64,000 nucleotides of DNA from contig NZ_CP024047.1 in assembly GCF_003430825.1 (NCBI RefSeq), positions 558,001-622,000 of the forward strand. The letters run 5' to 3'. Shown piece after piece: positions 10,037-17,719 of this stretch (positions are counted from its first letter, which is position 1; every line of letters starts with the position of its first letter). Position numbers and translations under genes: made by a program. The stretch is from Natrarchaeobaculum sulfurireducens. GTDB taxonomy: Archaea > Halobacteriota > Halobacteria > Halobacteriales > Natrialbaceae. A model generated the notes under the pieces. That model did no database searches. It was not told where the DNA came from and was given only the letters and a program-made list of their open reading frames with translations.

Positions 10037-10900
10037 TCAGTCGTCAGCCGGACTGAAGCCGGGCAGGCTCGAGCCGTAGTCTGCACCCGCGGTGACCTCC
10101 GAGGGTTCTTTGATCAGCCACATCATGATGAGCACCGTCACGATGTACTTGCTGATGATGTCGAGGATGCTGTAGCCCCAGGAGGTGATCGCCACGTCGA
10201 GCAGGGCGAACCCTTCGACACCGAGCGCCCACAGGATCGGGTAGCCGAACCACGAGACGACGGTCAGGATCTTCAGCGTGTTGAACAGGTCGATCGTCCC
10301 TGTCTGTTTCGCCTCGGCCGTCCACTCGACGAGGATGATGTAGACGATGACCAGGAAGAACAGCGAGCTAATCACGAACCACCACCAGCGCATGACCAGC
10401 GAGGAGGTCGTGAGTGCCGCTGCGAGGCCGGTGACACACATCGCGATGGTGAACGCGACCGACGTCAGGATCTTCGTCATGTTCGAGCCGGCGATCATTC
10501 CGAGGGCGATCAGGATAAACGGCGTCGAGAACGTCCACGTGAGGTATCGGCCCCACATCGTCAGGACGCCGTCCTCACCGGCGGTCGTCATTCCCTCCGC
10601 GGGATGGCCCGCCGGCATCTCGATAATACTCAATGTGAGTCCCGAGGTCAACCCGGAATAACTCGAGATCGATACGACGGAGATCAACATCACCGACACC
10701 GCGATGAGCTTCGCTCGTGGATCAGTGAGGTTACGCCCGAGATAGACGATCAGGAGGATCGTCAGACCCGCGAGCGCGATGTTGAGTACGAACGACCACG
10801 CAAGCAAGGGGTCGCTGAATACGTATTCGAAGAGGTCTGCCTGTGTTATCTCGAGCGGCTGTGCGAGTGCCGTCTTGTCGAGGGGTGCTGAGGGTACCAT
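10037..10900 (-). CDS. hop: Halorhodopsin (light-driven chloride pump)
   Basis: A 287-residue seven-helix microbial rhodopsin. The retinal Schiff-base lysine is K251 in ISKYIVTVLIM. Helix C reads GRYLTWTFSTPFILIALG: R118 is kept, the proton-acceptor Asp (bacteriorhodopsin D85) is T121, T89 is S125 and the donor D96 is A132. This TSA pattern defines inward chloride pumps rather than proton pumps. The protein acts in the cytoplasmic membrane, using light to import chloride and hyperpolarise the cell. It sits beside genes for carotenoid desaturation, retinal formation (brp) and Bat regulators. A TATA-like element and a degenerate Bat-type site lie upstream. Confidence 0.96.
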   Translation of the reverse strand: MVPSAPLDKTALAQPLEITQADLFEYVFSDPLLAWSFVLNIALAGLTILLIVYLGRNLTDPRAKLIAVSVMLISVVSISSYSGLTSGLTLSIIEMPAGHPAEGMTTAGEDGVLTMWGRYLTWTFSTPFILIALGMIAGSNMTKILTSVAFTIAMCVTGLAAALTTSSLVMRWWWFVISSLFFLVIVYIILVEWTAEAKQTGTIDLFNTLKILTVVSWFGYPILWALGVEGFALLDVAITSWGYSILDIISKYIVTVLIMMWLIKEPSEVTAGADYGSSLPGFSPADD

Positions 10901-10930: not shown

Positions 10931-10959
10931 GTAAAAGGACCCCCCCTTACCTGTATGGG
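10931..10959 (-). promoter_or_regulatory. hop promoter: TATA-like box and degenerate Bat-type UAS
   Basis: On the minus strand a TTTTAC TATA-like element (10931-10937) lies about 34 nt upstream of the hop ATG, placing transcription start near 10907. The 15-mer at 10945-10959 (CCCATACAGGTAAGG) falls at about -38 to -52, where the bop upstream activating sequence sits. It keeps CC, one T and the terminal GG of the ACCcnactagTTnGG consensus. The position is suggestive but the match is poor. Confidence 0.35.
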
Positions 10960-11133: not shown

Positions 11134-12651
11134 TCAGAACGGCAGGAGACGGCCGACGCCGGTCGGTCGCATGTCGGCTCGGATGGTTTCGGCGACGTGT
11201 TCGCCGCTCAACAGACACATCGGGACGCCGATTCCGGGGTTCGTGTCGCCGCCGACGTAGTAGAGGCCGTCGACACCGGGCGCACGATGGCCGGGACGCA
11301 TCGGACCGGTCTGAAAGAGCGTGTGAGCGAGGCCGAGCGCAGTGCCCTGTGGTCGGTCGAGTCGCCGTTCGTAATCGGAGACGGCGGTCAGCTCCTCGAG
11401 TAGGATTCGGTCGCGGAGGTCGACCCCCGTCGTCGCTGCCAGATCCGCGAGCACCGCATCGCGGTAGGTCGTCCGAAGTTCCGGCCCGTCCTCGAGTCCC
11501 GGCGCGATCGGGACGAGGATCACGACGGTCGAACAACCCTCGGGTGCGACCGACGGGTCCGTTTCCGAAGGGACGTTGACGTAGTAGGCAGGGTCCTCGG
11601 GCCAGTGTGGCTCCTCAAAGATCGACTCGAAGTGGGGGTCCCAGTCGGTCGGCAACACGAGCGTGTGATGCTCGAGCGGGTCGACGTCGCCGTCGACGCC
11701 GAGATAGAGCATGAACGCCGACGGTCCCCACGTCCTGTCGTCCCAGTAGTCCGGTTTCCGGTCGACCGCGTCGGCCGGGAGCAGCGATCGTTCGACCGAC
11801 GCCGGCGGCGCGTTGCAGACGACTCTGTCGTGGACGTACTCGTCGCCGCCGAGGCTCACCGCGAGCCCGTCCGCCCGTGGGACGACCCCGTCGACCTCGG
11901 CGTCGGTGTGGATTTCGACGCCCTGGGCCTGCGCGACTCGCTCCATCGCCTCGACGACCTCGTACATTCCACCCTGTGGGTAGTAGACGCCCATTCCGAG
12001 GTCGACGTGGCTCATCAATTTATACAGGGACGGGGTGTTGTGCGGCGAGCCACCGAGGAAGACCAACGTGTACTGGAGGAGCTGGCGAAGTTTCGGATGG
12101 TCGATGTACGTCCGGACGTGGTCGTCCATCGAGCCGAGCAAGGTAAGCCCGCGGGCTGACCGAGCAACCTCGAGCGAGAGGTAGTCGCGAAACCGGGTTC
12201 GGTTCGCCATCACGAACCGGTTCATTCCGATCTCGTAGGCCTCCGCGGCGTCCTCGAGATAGCGCCGAAGCGCGTCGCCGGCACCCGCCTCGTAGGATTC
12301 GAACAGGGCGGCGGTTTCCTCGAGATCGGTCGTCACGTCTGCCCGGTCGCCGTCGTCCCAGAAGACACGATAGTTCGGCTCGAGTTCGACGAGCTCGTAG
12401 TGGTCGGCCGGCGAGTCGTCGAAGTGCTCGAAAAAGCGCTCGAAGACCTCGGGGATGAGATACCACGACGGCCCGGTGTCGAACCGGAAGCCGTCGGACT
12501 CGAGCCGGTTGGCTACGCCGCCGACTCGACTCTCGCGTTCGTAGACGGAGACGTCAGCGCCGGCAGCGCCGAGGTACGCACTGGCGGCGAGTCCACCGAT
12601 CCCGGCACCGACGACGCCGATCGTCTCGTCGTTGCGGTCAGCGTCAACCAT
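11134..12651 (-). CDS. CrtI-family phytoene desaturase / carotenoid oxidoreductase
   Basis: A 505-residue FAD-dependent carotenoid desaturase of the CrtI/CrtN/CrtD family. The N-terminal Rossmann motif is VVGAGIGGLAASAYLGAAGA, followed by ERESRVGG. The C-terminal FAD and membrane-associating region contains DGLYYVGGDTNPGIGVPM. CrtI enzymes convert phytoene to lycopene, the substrate of the lycopene cyclase at 16940-17719; related family members instead make 3,4-desaturations in bacterioruberin synthesis, which cannot be excluded. It lies between hop and a divergent Bat-like regulator gene, which supports a role in the retinal pathway. A TATA-like TGTTTTGAAG lies near 12703-12713. Confidence 0.9.
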   Translation of the reverse strand: MVDADRNDETIGVVGAGIGGLAASAYLGAAGADVSVYERESRVGGVANRLESDGFRFDTGPSWYLIPEVFERFFEHFDDSPADHYELVELEPNYRVFWDDGDRADVTTDLEETAALFESYEAGAGDALRRYLEDAAEAYEIGMNRFVMANRTRFRDYLSLEVARSARGLTLLGSMDDHVRTYIDHPKLRQLLQYTLVFLGGSPHNTPSLYKLMSHVDLGMGVYYPQGGMYEVVEAMERVAQAQGVEIHTDAEVDGVVPRADGLAVSLGGDEYVHDRVVCNAPPASVERSLLPADAVDRKPDYWDDRTWGPSAFMLYLGVDGDVDPLEHHTLVLPTDWDPHFESIFEEPHWPEDPAYYVNVPSETDPSVAPEGCSTVVILVPIAPGLEDGPELRTTYRDAVLADLAATTGVDLRDRILLEELTAVSDYERRLDRPQGTALGLAHTLFQTGPMRPGHRAPGVDGLYYVGGDTNPGIGVPMCLLSGEHVAETIRADMRPTGVGRLLPF

Positions 12652-12755: not shown

Positions 12756-12784
12756 GGCAGACTAGTTTGGCCCTCGTTATATCA
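12756..12784 (+). promoter_or_regulatory. bop-type UAS and TATA box upstream of the Bat-like gene
   Basis: ACTAGTTTGG at 12761-12770 reproduces the ACTAG-TT-n-GG half of the bop promoter activating sequence (ACCcnactagTTnGG). The 15-mer at 12756-12770 matches at all but the first two fixed bases and one weaker position. A TATA box GTTATATCA (12776-12784) follows, with the ATG at 12807 about 27 nt downstream. The UAS therefore spans roughly -51 to -37, the known bop geometry. Because ACTAGT is palindromic and the crtI-type gene diverges from here, the site might also serve that gene. Confidence 0.65.
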
Positions 12785-12806: not shown

Positions 12807-13514
12807 ATGGCAACGACCGGTCGTCCAGAGATCGACGACGGCGAGCGGGACGTGAGTACGTCGGGTGCTGATGGACCGATCGAGAGCGATACCTCCGGCG
12901 GCGTTCGTGCACGGCTGGCGATCCGCGACCCACCCGGCTGTGCGGTCGCCGACGTGGTAGCCGACGGAGCAACTGCAACCGACGTCCAGTGGGCCGATGC
13001 GTCCGCCGGCACCGTCGAACAGTTCCGCGCCCGTCGTGGCCTCGAGGCCGAGCCGATCTTCGCCGCGGACGAAGAATCCGTCTACCGCCTCGCCGACGCT
13101 GATGCCGACAGGGACTGTCCATGTCGGTGGATCGAGTCGCTTGGCTATCCGATCGCGGACGTCTCGGTGACGGGTCAGCCAAGCCAGCTCGTCGTGACGC
13201 TCTTGCTTCCCTCTCCGGAGCCGATCGTCGAGATCGTCGACGCCCTCGAGTCCCGTGGCGTGTCGGTCCGACTCGAGTGTCTCGTCAGATCGATCCCGCA
13301 CGACGACGAGTCGATCGTCGTCGACGCCGGTCGGTTGACCGACCGCCAGCGCGAGGTGCTCGAGGTCGCCTACCGGATGGGGTACTTTTCGTATCCGCGG
13401 GAGGGGAACGCGACGGCGGTGGCCGAAGAACTCGGTATCGTCAGGTCGACGTTCACCGAGCACCTCGCAGCCGCTCAGCGCCGGCTGTTCGAGGGGGTCT
13501 TCGACGAGCGCTAA
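12807..13514 (+). CDS. Bat-like HTH_10 regulator of the phototrophy cluster
   Basis: A 235-residue regulator. The C-terminal HTH_10 domain (about residues 178-232) reads LTDRQREVLEVAYRMGYFSY, then ELGIVRSTFTEHLAAAQRR, closely like the end of Bat. The N-terminal region (about 40-170) is the effector half typical of short haloarchaeal Bat paralogues; no PAS or GAF motif is visible. It diverges from the crtI-type gene and converges on brp. Its promoter carries a bop-type UAS, so it may be under Bat control and relay the signal. Transcription appears leaderless. That it regulates hop or carotenoid genes is inference. Confidence 0.85.
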   Translation: MATTGRPEIDDGERDVSTSGADGPIESDTSGGVRARLAIRDPPGCAVADVVADGATATDVQWADASAGTVEQFRARRGLEAEPIFAADEESVYRLADADADRDCPCRWIESLGYPIADVSVTGQPSQLVVTLLLPSPEPIVEIVDALESRGVSVRLECLVRSIPHDDESIVVDAGRLTDRQREVLEVAYRMGYFSYPREGNATAVAEELGIVRSTFTEHLAAAQRRLFEGVFDER

Positions 13515-13569: not shown

Positions 13570-14607
13570 TCAGGGGACGTACCAGATCCCGCGTTTGAAA
13601 TCGAGCCACTCGCCGACGACGACGTGTGGCAGGGCAACGATACAGATGAACAGGGTGTAAAACGCTACCAGTCCGGGGAGCAACGCCGCGCCGCCGAGGG
13701 GGTCCGGCGCGATACCCCAGATCGCGACCATCACGAGTGCCGTCGCCAGTGCGCCGACGACCAATACTCCCCAGGCGGCAACGACGGGCATCCCGTCATC
13801 GGGACTGGCTTCCTCGCGTTCGACGACGACGCTACGGGCGGACTGACGCAGCGAGTACCACAGCGGGAAGTAGAGCCCGATGGCGACGACGACGGGCACG
13901 ACCGTAAAAAAGACGACGAGCAACGAGGTTTCGAACGCGTCGAGCATCCAGGAACGACTCATCCCATCGATCAACAGGCCGCCGCCGAGGTGGGCGACGA
14001 CGCCGACCCCGAACAGTCCGAGCAGCGCGATCCGGGCGGGTTCGACGTACGCGATGCCGGGCAGTCCAGCCCCAGGGTCGAAGACGTTCAGCATGATCGT
14101 AGAGAAACTGGTGTACGGTCCGACCCACAGCGCAAGCGGGAGGATCATCACAGCACCGCCACGGACCAGTGCGGCCAGCACCCGCTGTGATCGGTACTGC
14201 AGGTGGTCGGTCCCGACGATGGCGTCCATCACCCGGAGGTCGCCGTGTCCTCCCTTCGCGACCGCCGTCGCGAGCGCGATCAGTAACGCCAGTGCCGGGG
14301 CGACCAGAAACAATCCGACGAACGCGGCGAGAAACGCCACGTAGAGTGCGACGTACCGGAGGCCAAAGGGCAGCCCCCGGCGCCTGACGTTCGTGAAGTG
14401 CTCGTAGCCGCCGTGGGGGAGGTTCAACGCAACCATCCCCACCAGATAGATCACCATCTGCGTCTCGAGCGAAGGTCGGATGCCAAGAAGCAGTGTCGCG
14501 CCGAAGATGACGATGAGCGCGATCAATGCCCCTCTGGACGCGTTGATAAGTGTGTGCTCGACTGACGGCACACGCCGCGACTCGAGCCCGAACGAGTGCG
14601 TTCCCAT
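13570..14607 (-). CDS. brp: Brp/Blh-type beta-carotene 15,15'-dioxygenase
   Basis: A 345-residue integral membrane protein of the Brp/Blh family, which splits beta-carotene into two retinals for microbial rhodopsins. Conserved His-containing motifs are visible: NLPHGGYEHF (about residues 52-61), AKGGHGD in the middle and ALPHVVVGEWLD near the C-terminus, consistent with the family's iron site. Eight or more hydrophobic segments are present. A longer in-frame start at 14700 exists, but ATG 14607 (MGTHSFGLES) directly precedes the first membrane helix and leaves room for the promoter at 14661-14670. It is divergent from bat, as in bop clusters, and would supply retinal to halorhodopsin. Confidence 0.93.
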   Translation of the reverse strand: MGTHSFGLESRRVPSVEHTLINASRGALIALIVIFGATLLLGIRPSLETQMVIYLVGMVALNLPHGGYEHFTNVRRRGLPFGLRYVALYVAFLAAFVGLFLVAPALALLIALATAVAKGGHGDLRVMDAIVGTDHLQYRSQRVLAALVRGGAVMILPLALWVGPYTSFSTIMLNVFDPGAGLPGIAYVEPARIALLGLFGVGVVAHLGGGLLIDGMSRSWMLDAFETSLLVVFFTVVPVVVAIGLYFPLWYSLRQSARSVVVEREEASPDDGMPVVAAWGVLVVGALATALVMVAIWGIAPDPLGGAALLPGLVAFYTLFICIVALPHVVVGEWLDFKRGIWYVP

Positions 14608-14660
14608 ACCAACTCGTTGGGCCGACGAACGGTTGGGTACTGACCGTACCACGGCGGCTC

Positions 14661-14711
14661 TTTTTAACGGGGTTAACGACCGACTGCTGGGAGTTGGCAC
14701 AAACGTTTAGC
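14661..14711. promoter_or_regulatory. Divergent brp / bat promoter region
   Basis: For brp, a minus-strand TATA-like CCGTTAAAAA at 14661-14670 predicts a leader of about 33 nt. For bat, AAACGTTTAGC at 14701-14711 is centred 29 nt before the ATG at 14735, suggesting a leaderless message. A 15-mer at 14683-14697 sits at -51 to -37 of bat and keeps only part of the bop UAS consensus (first AC, one T, final GG). Co-regulation of both genes from this 127-bp region is plausible. Confidence 0.45.
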
Positions 14712-14734: not shown

Positions 14735-16735
14735 ATGAGAGACGGTCGTATCCTCGTGGTCCATCCGGAGGACGGAAGCGGTCCCATCGAGCGTGCGCTC
14801 GAGGAGGCTGGCTATCTGGTCACCGTCGTCGAGCGGGCGACGACCGCAGTAGCCAGAGTCTCCTCGGGTGAATTCGACTGCGTCGTCAGCGGTTACGAGT
14901 TGCCAGGTGACGACGGGGTGGCGTTGCTCGAGGCGATCCGTGAGGTCGACCCAACGCTCCCGAAGATCATGTACACGGCCGACGATGCCGTCGCTGACGA
15001 CGCGTTCGAGTGTGGAATCGATCGGTTCGTCACGCGGAACGGGGCGGCGTCGCTCGATCGACTGATCGGGGAGGTCACGGCAGTTACCTCGGAGACGACC
15101 GACCCGCCACAGGACGTCTCCGATCACGAACCCGATCCCGAAGCGATCGTCCGGGCGATCGACGATGCACCGATCGGGATCAGTCTGAGTCACGCGTCGC
15201 TCCCCGACGACCCGCTCGTGTACATCAACGATGCCTGGGAAGACATCACTGGCTACGATCGACAACACGCCCTCGGGCGAAATCCACGATTCCTCCAGGG
15301 ACCCGCCACCGACGCAGAGACGGTCGAGGCGATCGGAAACGCCATCGGGAACGACGTTCCGATCACCGTCGAGGTCCAGAACTACCGGCGCGACGGAACG
15401 CCATTCTGGAACGAGTTGACGGTCGCCCCCGTTCGCGACGACGACGGCGAGGTCACCCACTACGTCGGCTTCCAGAACGACGTCACCGATCGCAAAACCG
15501 CAGAAACCATCGTCGAAGAGCGAACCGCGAAACTCGCCGAAGAACGACGGGCACTCCGGCGGCTGCTCGAGCACGTCCACGGGCTACTCAACGAGATTAC
15601 GGACGTGCTAGTCACCGAACGTGACCGACGCGTCATCGCCCAGCGTGTCTGTGACGAAATCGCCACCGTTGGGACCTATCCCGCCTGCTGGTTCGGGTCG
15701 ACCACGCCGACGGGCGACGCGCTCGTGCTGGAGGCGTCGACCGGACTCTCCGAAACCGTCGACTCTCAACTCGAGCTAACAACGCTTCCAGCGCCCGTCG
15801 AGGACGTCCTCGAGTCCGGCGAGCCTGGGGCCTGTCGGGTCGGTGAGTGTACAAGCGAGATCCTCGGTCCGGCCACGGTCGGTGCCAGACGGCTCGCGGT
15901 CGTCCCGGTCGCGTACGGACACAAGCGCTACGGGCTGCTCGGTGTCTACGGCGACCGAGGTGAGACCCTCGACCGTCGCGAACAACAACTGTTCGCATCG
16001 ATCGGACGCATGGTCGGCAGTCGACTGAACGCCATCCAGACGCAAGAGCTGCTCACTGCAGACCGGGTCACCGAAATCGAAGTCGAGATCAGAGACGAGC
16101 AGTTCCCGCTGTCTGCGGTCGCTGGCGAGCTCGAGGGGCCGGTCGAATACGTTGGACTGACTCATACCCCGGACAGCGCGTCCTGTGAGTTGTTCTGTAC
16201 GACGACGGCCGACACGTCGTCTGTCGACCTGTCGGCACTCGCGTTCGTCGACGATGTCCGGAGGATAACCGACACAGGGGCCGGGACGACGTTCGCACTC
16301 ACCGTCGAGTCGGCGTCGCCGTTCCGTGACCTCGCTGAGTACGGCGCATCGATCAGCGAACTCATCGCTCACCCGAGACGGGTGGTGCTCACGCTCGAAC
16401 TCTCGCCGTCGGACGAGGTTCGGTCGATTCTCGACGTTCTCAAAGCCCAGTACGATCAGGTGACGCTTCGATCCCGGACCGAACGCGAGACGCGCACACG
16501 AACGGTGCTCGATTGTTCGGCGATGCTCGAGGAGCGTCTGACGGACCGACAACAGGCCGCGCTCGAGGCGGCACAACTGAACGGCTACTTCGAGTGGCCA
16601 CGACCAGCGGATGGGGCGGAGATCGCAGAGACGATGGGGATCACTCGACAGACGTTCCACCAGCACCTTCGAGCGGCCGAACGAAAGCTCGTCGAGACCT
16701 ACGTCGGTACCGGATCGAACGGACAGGTGTCCTGA
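14735..16735 (+). CDS. bat: Bat: bacterio-opsin activator with pseudo-receiver, LOV-like PAS, GAF and HTH_10 domains
   Basis: A 666-residue regulator. Domains in order are a receiver-like domain (about 1-115), PAS (about 135-255), a short coiled coil, GAF (about 290-430), the BAT region and C-terminal HTH_10 (about 605-660; LTDRQQAALEAAQLNGYFEW). Bat activates opsin and retinal genes in response to light and low oxygen in Halobacterium. Two input residues are altered. The receiver phospho-Asp is Gly53 (VVSGYELPGDDG) and its conserved Lys is Arg101. In the LOV-like PAS signature (GRNPRFLQG) the photoactive Cys is Pro184. The protein therefore probably senses through the GAF domain or non-covalently. 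It is divergent from brp and precedes lycopene cyclase. Confidence 0.93.
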   Translation: MRDGRILVVHPEDGSGPIERALEEAGYLVTVVERATTAVARVSSGEFDCVVSGYELPGDDGVALLEAIREVDPTLPKIMYTADDAVADDAFECGIDRFVTRNGAASLDRLIGEVTAVTSETTDPPQDVSDHEPDPEAIVRAIDDAPIGISLSHASLPDDPLVYINDAWEDITGYDRQHALGRNPRFLQGPATDAETVEAIGNAIGNDVPITVEVQNYRRDGTPFWNELTVAPVRDDDGEVTHYVGFQNDVTDRKTAETIVEERTAKLAEERRALRRLLEHVHGLLNEITDVLVTERDRRVIAQRVCDEIATVGTYPACWFGSTTPTGDALVLEASTGLSETVDSQLELTTLPAPVEDVLESGEPGACRVGECTSEILGPATVGARRLAVVPVAYGHKRYGLLGVYGDRGETLDRREQQLFASIGRMVGSRLNAIQTQELLTADRVTEIEVEIRDEQFPLSAVAGELEGPVEYVGLTHTPDSASCELFCTTTADTSSVDLSALAFVDDVRRITDTGAGTTFALTVESASPFRDLAEYGASISELIAHPRRVVLTLELSPSDEVRSILDVLKAQYDQVTLRSRTERETRTRTVLDCSAMLEERLTDRQQAALEAAQLNGYFEWPRPADGAEIAETMGITRQTFHQHLRAAERKLVETYVGTGSNGQVS

Positions 16736-16939: not shown

Positions 16940-17719
16940 ATGAGTCCGCCGCTCAGTTATCTCGAGTTTCACCTGGTGTTCATCGTACCGCCGATCCTGC
17001 TCCTCGGAGCGCTCGCCTGGTGGCGAGACGACGCCTGGCTCGACCGCCGGTCGCTGTCCGGACTCGGGATTTTGATCGGGCTGGCGGTCGTGTACACGAC
17101 CCCGTGGACGAACGTGATGATTCCGGAGGGGGTCTGGTGGTACGGCGAGGGTGCCGTCGTCGAGCGGATCTGGTATACGCCGGTCGAGGAGTACCTCTTT
17201 TTCGTCTTACAGCCAGTGGTGACGGCGTTGTGGCTGTTCCAGTTTCTCGACGTCGCGGACCGGTCACTGCAGATCCCGCTGTCCCACCGCGTCGTCGGCG
17301 TCCTGGCGGGACTCGCGATCTGTCTCGTCGGCTGGCTGCTGCTCGGAACGACGTCGACGTACTACCTCGGCTCGATCCTGTTCTGGGCCGGGCCGATCCT
17401 CGCGATTCAGTGGGGCTTCGGGCTGACATACCTCCGGGACACCTGGCCGATCGTCACGCTGGGCATCGCCGTCCCGACGCTCTATCTCTGGGTCGCCGAC
17501 GGAATCGCGATCGGCCTCGGTATCTGGGAAATTTCGACGACCCACACCGTCGGCGTGTCGGTACTCGGGCTCCCACTCGAGGAGGCGCTGTTCTTCCTCG
17601 TAACGAACGTCTTCATCGTCCAGGGGATCGTCATGTACGTCTGGGTGCTCGAGCGCAAGCACGAACTGGTCGAGCTGGCCTCGTTCAACGATCGACCTGC
17701 GGCCTACGAAACCGACTGA
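16940..17719 (+). CDS. crtY: Lycopene beta-cyclase (CrtYcd-type)
   Basis: A 259-residue membrane protein made of two repeated lycopene-cyclase domains, the fused form of the heterodimeric CrtYc/CrtYd enzymes. Each half carries the acidic P-x-E-E motif (PVEEYLFF near residue 78; PLEEALFF near residue 214), and about seven hydrophobic helices are present. It closes both ends of lycopene to make beta-carotene, the substrate of Brp/Blh. It follows bat on the same strand after about 200 nt and completes the retinal branch of this cluster. No cofactor-binding Rossmann fold is present, as expected for this class. Confidence 0.93.
   Translation: MSPPLSYLEFHLVFIVPPILLLGALAWWRDDAWLDRRSLSGLGILIGLAVVYTTPWTNVMIPEGVWWYGEGAVVERIWYTPVEEYLFFVLQPVVTALWLFQFLDVADRSLQIPLSHRVVGVLAGLAICLVGWLLLGTTSTYYLGSILFWAGPILAIQWGFGLTYLRDTWPIVTLGIAVPTLYLWVADGIAIGLGIWEISTTHTVGVSVLGLPLEEALFFLVTNVFIVQGIVMYVWVLERKHELVELASFNDRPAAYETD

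Follow-up and report, generated by a model that had tools for sequence, protein, structure and literature searches.

Archaeal activators of the GvpE and Ptr2 type bind next to the BRE and TATA box. Few archaeal activator circuits have a site that was mutated and verified. One that does is that of Bat and its upstream activating sequence (UAS), described for the bacteriorhodopsin genes of a single species: in Halobacterium, this Bat-dependent element serves bop, brp, bat and crtB1. It was verified experimentally for the bop genes (PMC1502140), instances are said to occur at up to 108 genes (PMC1502140), and Brz and Brb are also required for bop (PMC3184054). Here we analysed a stretch of 64,000 nucleotides from Natrarchaeobaculum sulfurireducens (the window), in which, judging from sequence, two new members of the Bat/UAS kind precede the gene of a small HTH_10 factor and hop (Table 1). 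Both systems appear to have the inverted-repeat core CCnnAC-nn-gTnnGG in common, and they share a position just 5' of the TATA box (about -52 to -38) and a retinal-protein context. Unlike in Halobacterium, the element precedes hop and the gene of a transcription factor here, the left half of the regulator site is degenerate, and bat and blh of this clade lack it. With GvpE/Ptr2-type activators it has in common a site abutting the core promoter, whereas the proteins are unrelated.

Table 1. Coordinates of the features of the locus in the window, with the basis of assignment.
Feature	Positions	Strand	Remarks
hop, halorhodopsin-type opsin, light-driven chloride pump	10037..10900	-	translation, domain and sequence comparison
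TATA-like TTTTAC of hop	10931..10936	-	8 nt past dyad; sequence
Perfect dyad CCATAC-AG-GTAAGG, CCATACAGGTAAGG	10945..10958	-	-58 from hop ATG; sequence and comparison
Phytoene desaturase CrtI/CrtD	11134..12651	-	divergent from small regulator; syntenic partner
UAS-type dyad GCAGAC-TA-GTTTGG	12757..12770	+	before small HTH_10 gene; 7/8 dyad positions; sequence and comparison
TATA box TTATAT	12777..12782	+	6 nt past dyad, ~27 nt 5' of ATG; sequence
Small regulator, 235 aa, DmsR_N + HTH_10	12807..13514	+	domain matches
Brp/Blh beta-carotene dioxygenase (retinal synthesis)	13570..14607	-	domain matches
Bat orthologue: degenerate receiver, LOV-like PAS, GAF, BAT domain, HTH_10	14735..16735	+	presumed dyad binder
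Lycopene cyclase	16940-17719	+	

The original prediction had described the small regulator as Bat-like. Its domain matches, DmsR_N (84.5 bits) followed by HTH_10 (72.9 bits), both above the cut-off, make it DmsR-like instead, and we classify the predicted product as a DmsR-type factor, not a Bat. In Halorubrum its gene is linked to hop and crtI, not to bat. A domain search returned only these two domains and no PAS, GAF or BAT sensor domain. The same pair is found in DmsR of Halobacterium sp. NRC-1, the activator of the dms operon; the small factor, however, sits with hop and crtI and not with DMSO reductase genes. With Bat, the bacterio-opsin activator, it shares the C-terminal HTH_10 domain but neither the receiver nor the PAS, GAF and BAT domains, and the recognition helices differ (T[FY]HQHL in Bat, STF[AST]EHLAAAQ in the small factor). 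Its AlphaFold model is poor (mean pLDDT 58), and no relative was found in the PDB. The product of 14735-16735, in contrast, combines PAS, GAF, BAT and HTH_10 domains, adjoins brp/blh and is 33-36% identical to Halobacterium Bat, with the HQHL helix, and we identify it as Bat. In the window protein and at loci L305-L322, the LOV-like PAS domain of Bat no longer has the adduct cysteine (the segment reads GRNPRFLQG in the window and GANHRFLQG in Halobacterium), and the usual phospho-acceptor Asp is absent from the receiver (SGY/SEY); distant Bat paralogues in genomes G034 and G110 retain GRNCRFLQG.

We then considered the site before the small regulator gene. The 15-mer GGCAGACTAGTTTGG spans 12756-12770, that is, -51 to -37 relative to the ATG at 12807, and the core ACTAGTTTGG (12761-12770) lies 46 nt 5' of this ATG with TTATAT in between, so that the predicted coordinates are confirmed. 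The dyad starts at -50, just upstream of the TATA box, where the bop UAS also lies. The TATA-to-ATG spacing fits a leaderless promoter with a presumed transcription start at the ATG. Compared with the bop UAS consensus, the ACC half is absent and replaced by GGC, the left dyad half being degenerate. As a string, the site is unremarkable. ACTAGTTNGG has a single exact match in the window, and 11 matches against 5.6 expected when one mismatch is allowed; the 15-mer with up to three mismatches has 41 window matches against 32 expected. When the 127,972 15-mers of the window were ranked with a matrix built from bop promoters only, taken from other genomes, the regulator site came 26th, with the hop candidate in 36th place and the bat candidate in 712th. 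When window genes of 150 codons or more were scored by promoter position, the small regulator and hop alone figured in the top 25. ACTAGTTTGG occurs twice in the whole 3.79 Mb genome, the second copy lying within a recombinase-like ORF, and ACTMGTTYGG sites elsewhere in the genome are nearly all inside long open frames, without promoter geometry. The bare string match is thus ordinary, no better than chance, and would not carry the claim by itself; what goes beyond chance at this site is its position and its conservation.

Conservation was followed in orthologues of the small factor, which were found in Natrialbaceae MAGs, Halobiforma nitratireducens and Halorubrum; judged by this gene, the first two are the nearest named relatives, and the window is haloarchaeal, from Natrialbaceae. 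At the orthologue loci the small factor is divergent from crtI, with hop behind crtI, and in Halorubrum this unit stands apart from the bop-blh-bat cluster. Counting from the start codon, the exact motif is found at -46 to -48 in most of the opsin-linked orthologues, as ACTAGTTTGG in MAG G121 and H. nitratireducens and as ACTCGTTCGG in Halorubrum, and the full dyads read CCGTACTAGTTTGG (perfect) in H. nitratireducens and GCGTACTCGTTCGG in Halorubrum (dyad start -51); within the 450 upstream bases searched, the exact motif is missing from all unlinked HTH_10 paralogues. Across 15 Halorubrum genomes, 13 consecutive columns (-50 to -38) are invariant, and the dyad holds a mean of 1.95 bits, compared with 1.10 bits upstream of it and 1.34 bits downstream. 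A dyad of at least 7/8 was found at 16 of the 23 orthologue-type loci, always at -50 to -52, and at 2 of 56 other paralogues (Fisher p ~1e-9, uncorrected for relatedness); since the species are related, this value overstates the number of independent events, and the independent lineages with the regulator site are three at most. That the site is a functionless chance match agrees with its plain string scores in the window; given the invariant 13-column block at a fixed distance in 15 genomes, the same site in two further lineages and its lack in the paralogues, we hold this to be highly improbable. The comparison supports a bop-UAS-family element in bop promoter geometry, kept over genera in orthologous promoters, as originally proposed.

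Aligning the bop, hop and regulator sites yields one inverted repeat, CCnnAC-nn-GTnnGG, which appears to be a better description of the element and which also seems to underlie ACCcnactagTTnGG. The latter, quoted in the original prediction and compared here with bop promoters, we take to be the bop UAS consensus; against the dyad, the regulator site scores 7/8, without the ACC of this consensus, and the hop site 8/8. We adopted the dyad in place of the bop matrix, by which Halorubrum sites score low because it weights ACC. The fit to bop, hop and regulator promoters is partly by construction, since the dyad was derived from them; genomes without the small factor and the pattern search of the N. 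sulfurireducens genome were examined after it had been fixed. All 18 cluster genomes have a perfect dyad in the hop promoter, at -56 to -58 from the ATG, while regulator promoters reach at least 7/8 in 19 of 21 and bop promoters mostly score 7/8, at -53 to -58. As a background, 46 of 910 gene starts, these loci included, score 7 or 8, and 7/8 dyads are common in the genome. The hop candidate at 10945-10959, predicted as a weaker site, is thus real but not weaker: its dyad is perfect and conserved in hop promoters, which makes it the better of the two. At hop it is retained in nearly all Halorubrum and in many Natrialbaceae, whereas the hop promoters of Natrinema-like genomes, Halobacterium and Haloarcula-like genomes do not have it, so the dyad is not universal at hop; its extension to hop is nonetheless well supported. 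The element, its fixed geometry, its conservation and its sharing with hop and bop are direct observations. Scanning the bat and blh promoters of the clusters revealed no convincing dyad, and the candidate once placed before bat (14683-14697) falls away, being poorly ranked and not conserved in close relatives.

Some further observations are worth recording. A conserved block around CGGTCAGTACCCAACCGT lies before blh, 3' of its TATA-like box (window 14609-14660 and loci L079-L082), and is a possible leader or operator. The window hop shares 83% identity with a hop of H. nitratireducens that is unlinked, but 57% with the hop in the crtI-regulator cluster of that species (L082, L280), which suggests gene replacement at the cluster. 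In one locus (L120, G182:C1:1-124), a bacteriorhodopsin identical to the Halobacterium query has a bop upstream region unlike other bop promoters; it lies at a contig end, and an insertion or an assembly edge is likely.

As to the protein that binds these dyads, Bat is the likeliest candidate, because the UAS is Bat's in Halobacterium (PMC1502140, PMC3184054), because five genomes have Bat and hop linked and because the recognition helix of Bat is unlike that of the small factor. In G079, G389, G204, G210 and G250, a Bat orthologue or homologue adjoins hop or lies within 5 kb of it; each of these genomes has a perfect hop dyad. Local autoregulation, in which the small factor would bind its own site and that of hop with no Bat-driven tier, would account for the dyad in both promoters and for the linkage of the factor to hop and crtI, not bat, in Halorubrum. 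Yet hop has a perfect dyad in Natrialbaceae genomes that yielded no small-factor orthologue (G034, G110, G113, G021, G084, G103, G079 and others) and in 9 of 10 Halorubrum genomes without the factor, so the factor is not required at hop and is probably not the hop binder; this dyad also serves as the bop UAS in genomes with no detected orthologue, and the helix class of the factor is common to unlinked paralogues whose promoters lack the dyad. We consider autoregulation quite unlikely, on evidence that concerns binding at hop; the small factor may still act on its own promoter alone. Another Bat-like activator, either a LOV-PAS/GAF/BAT/HTH_10 paralogue or a Brz-type cofactor, could be the main binder, since some genomes with hop dyads have only distant Bat homologues: in G034, G110, G113, G021, G084 and G103 the closest one found is ~37% identical, lacks the receiver and reads HEHL. 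The 43 HTH_10 matches in the N. sulfurireducens genome and the need for Brz and Brb at Halobacterium bop (PMC3184054) also favour it. Against it, the Bat gene lies two genes from the site and is hop-linked in the five other genomes, and we judge such a binder unlikely. Against Bat itself, the region near hop holds no bat in nine Halorubrum genomes that lack the small factor; in favour of Bat, all 16 sampled genomes of the genus with the factor carry the bat-linked type of Blh.

With fair confidence, we favour the reading that this site works as an element of the bop-UAS family, with Bat as its most probable user. Bound to CCnnAC-nn-GTnnGG directly upstream of the TATA box, an activator (most likely the neighbouring Bat, as a dimer) would help basal transcription factors onto the leaderless promoter and so switch on the gene of the small DmsR-type factor along with that of halorhodopsin. 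Since the same signal precedes the small regulator and hop, both probably belong to one light/oxygen-controlled circuit. With a transcription factor as the target, control by Bat would moreover extend to a second regulatory tier; the targets of the small factor might be crtI, which is divergent from it in most clusters and is the first suspect by position only, and perhaps other carotenoid or opsin genes. Binding by Bat, activation and the downstream tier are what we infer, and the two-tier circuit is plausible. Weighing against this reading, bat and blh themselves lack the dyad here, 7/8 dyads are frequent in the genome, the small-factor orthologues of G115 and G123 are without the full site, and in several hop-dyad genomes only a distant Bat homologue was found. 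Separately, crtI promoters of Halorubrum (e.g. L088-L092) contain a conserved imperfect inverted repeat, approximately GAGAGTTGGCAACGACTC, just 3' of the crtI TATA-like box; it is a possible operator, perhaps of the small factor.

The genome-wide dyad search covered two spacings of the pattern. With 36 bases between C-nn-AC-nn-GT-nn-GG and ATG, the genome has eight matches, one being the regulator site; at the hop spacing it has four, one being hop. Outside the window, a perfect dyad, CCTTACTAGTTGGG, is located at -50 (L348, G000 C3:506841-506854, minus strand), followed by an AT-rich stretch and an htr gene, then a sensory-rhodopsin-like opsin, which together form an htr-opsin operon. We estimate from base composition that a genome this large should hold about two perfect dyads at promoter distance by chance, and we therefore treat this dyad as a lead, not a result; a search with Htr for relatives of the sensory operon returned general transducers only. 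The site of the other htr-opsin operon (C3:461569-461582) scores 7/8 at an unusual distance and was too weak to count. No bacteriorhodopsin-type pump was found in the N. sulfurireducens genome; besides halorhodopsin and the two htr-linked opsins, it encodes two very divergent opsin-family proteins (G000 C3:2844482 and C3:862213). It is conceivable, and we put it forward only tentatively, that a Bat-type dyad runs the retinal proteins of this organism, in which bacteriorhodopsin was not found, as one regulon, comprising the chloride pump, the htr-opsin operon and, in a feed-forward loop over pigment genes, the second-tier DmsR-type factor.

If the preferred reading is true, the Bat/UAS regulon would be widened to other retinal proteins, with hop included over many genera, and to a transcription factor. 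The clean dyad would offer a sharper search pattern, and Halorubrum may provide a two-tier archaeal circuit that is open to experimental test.
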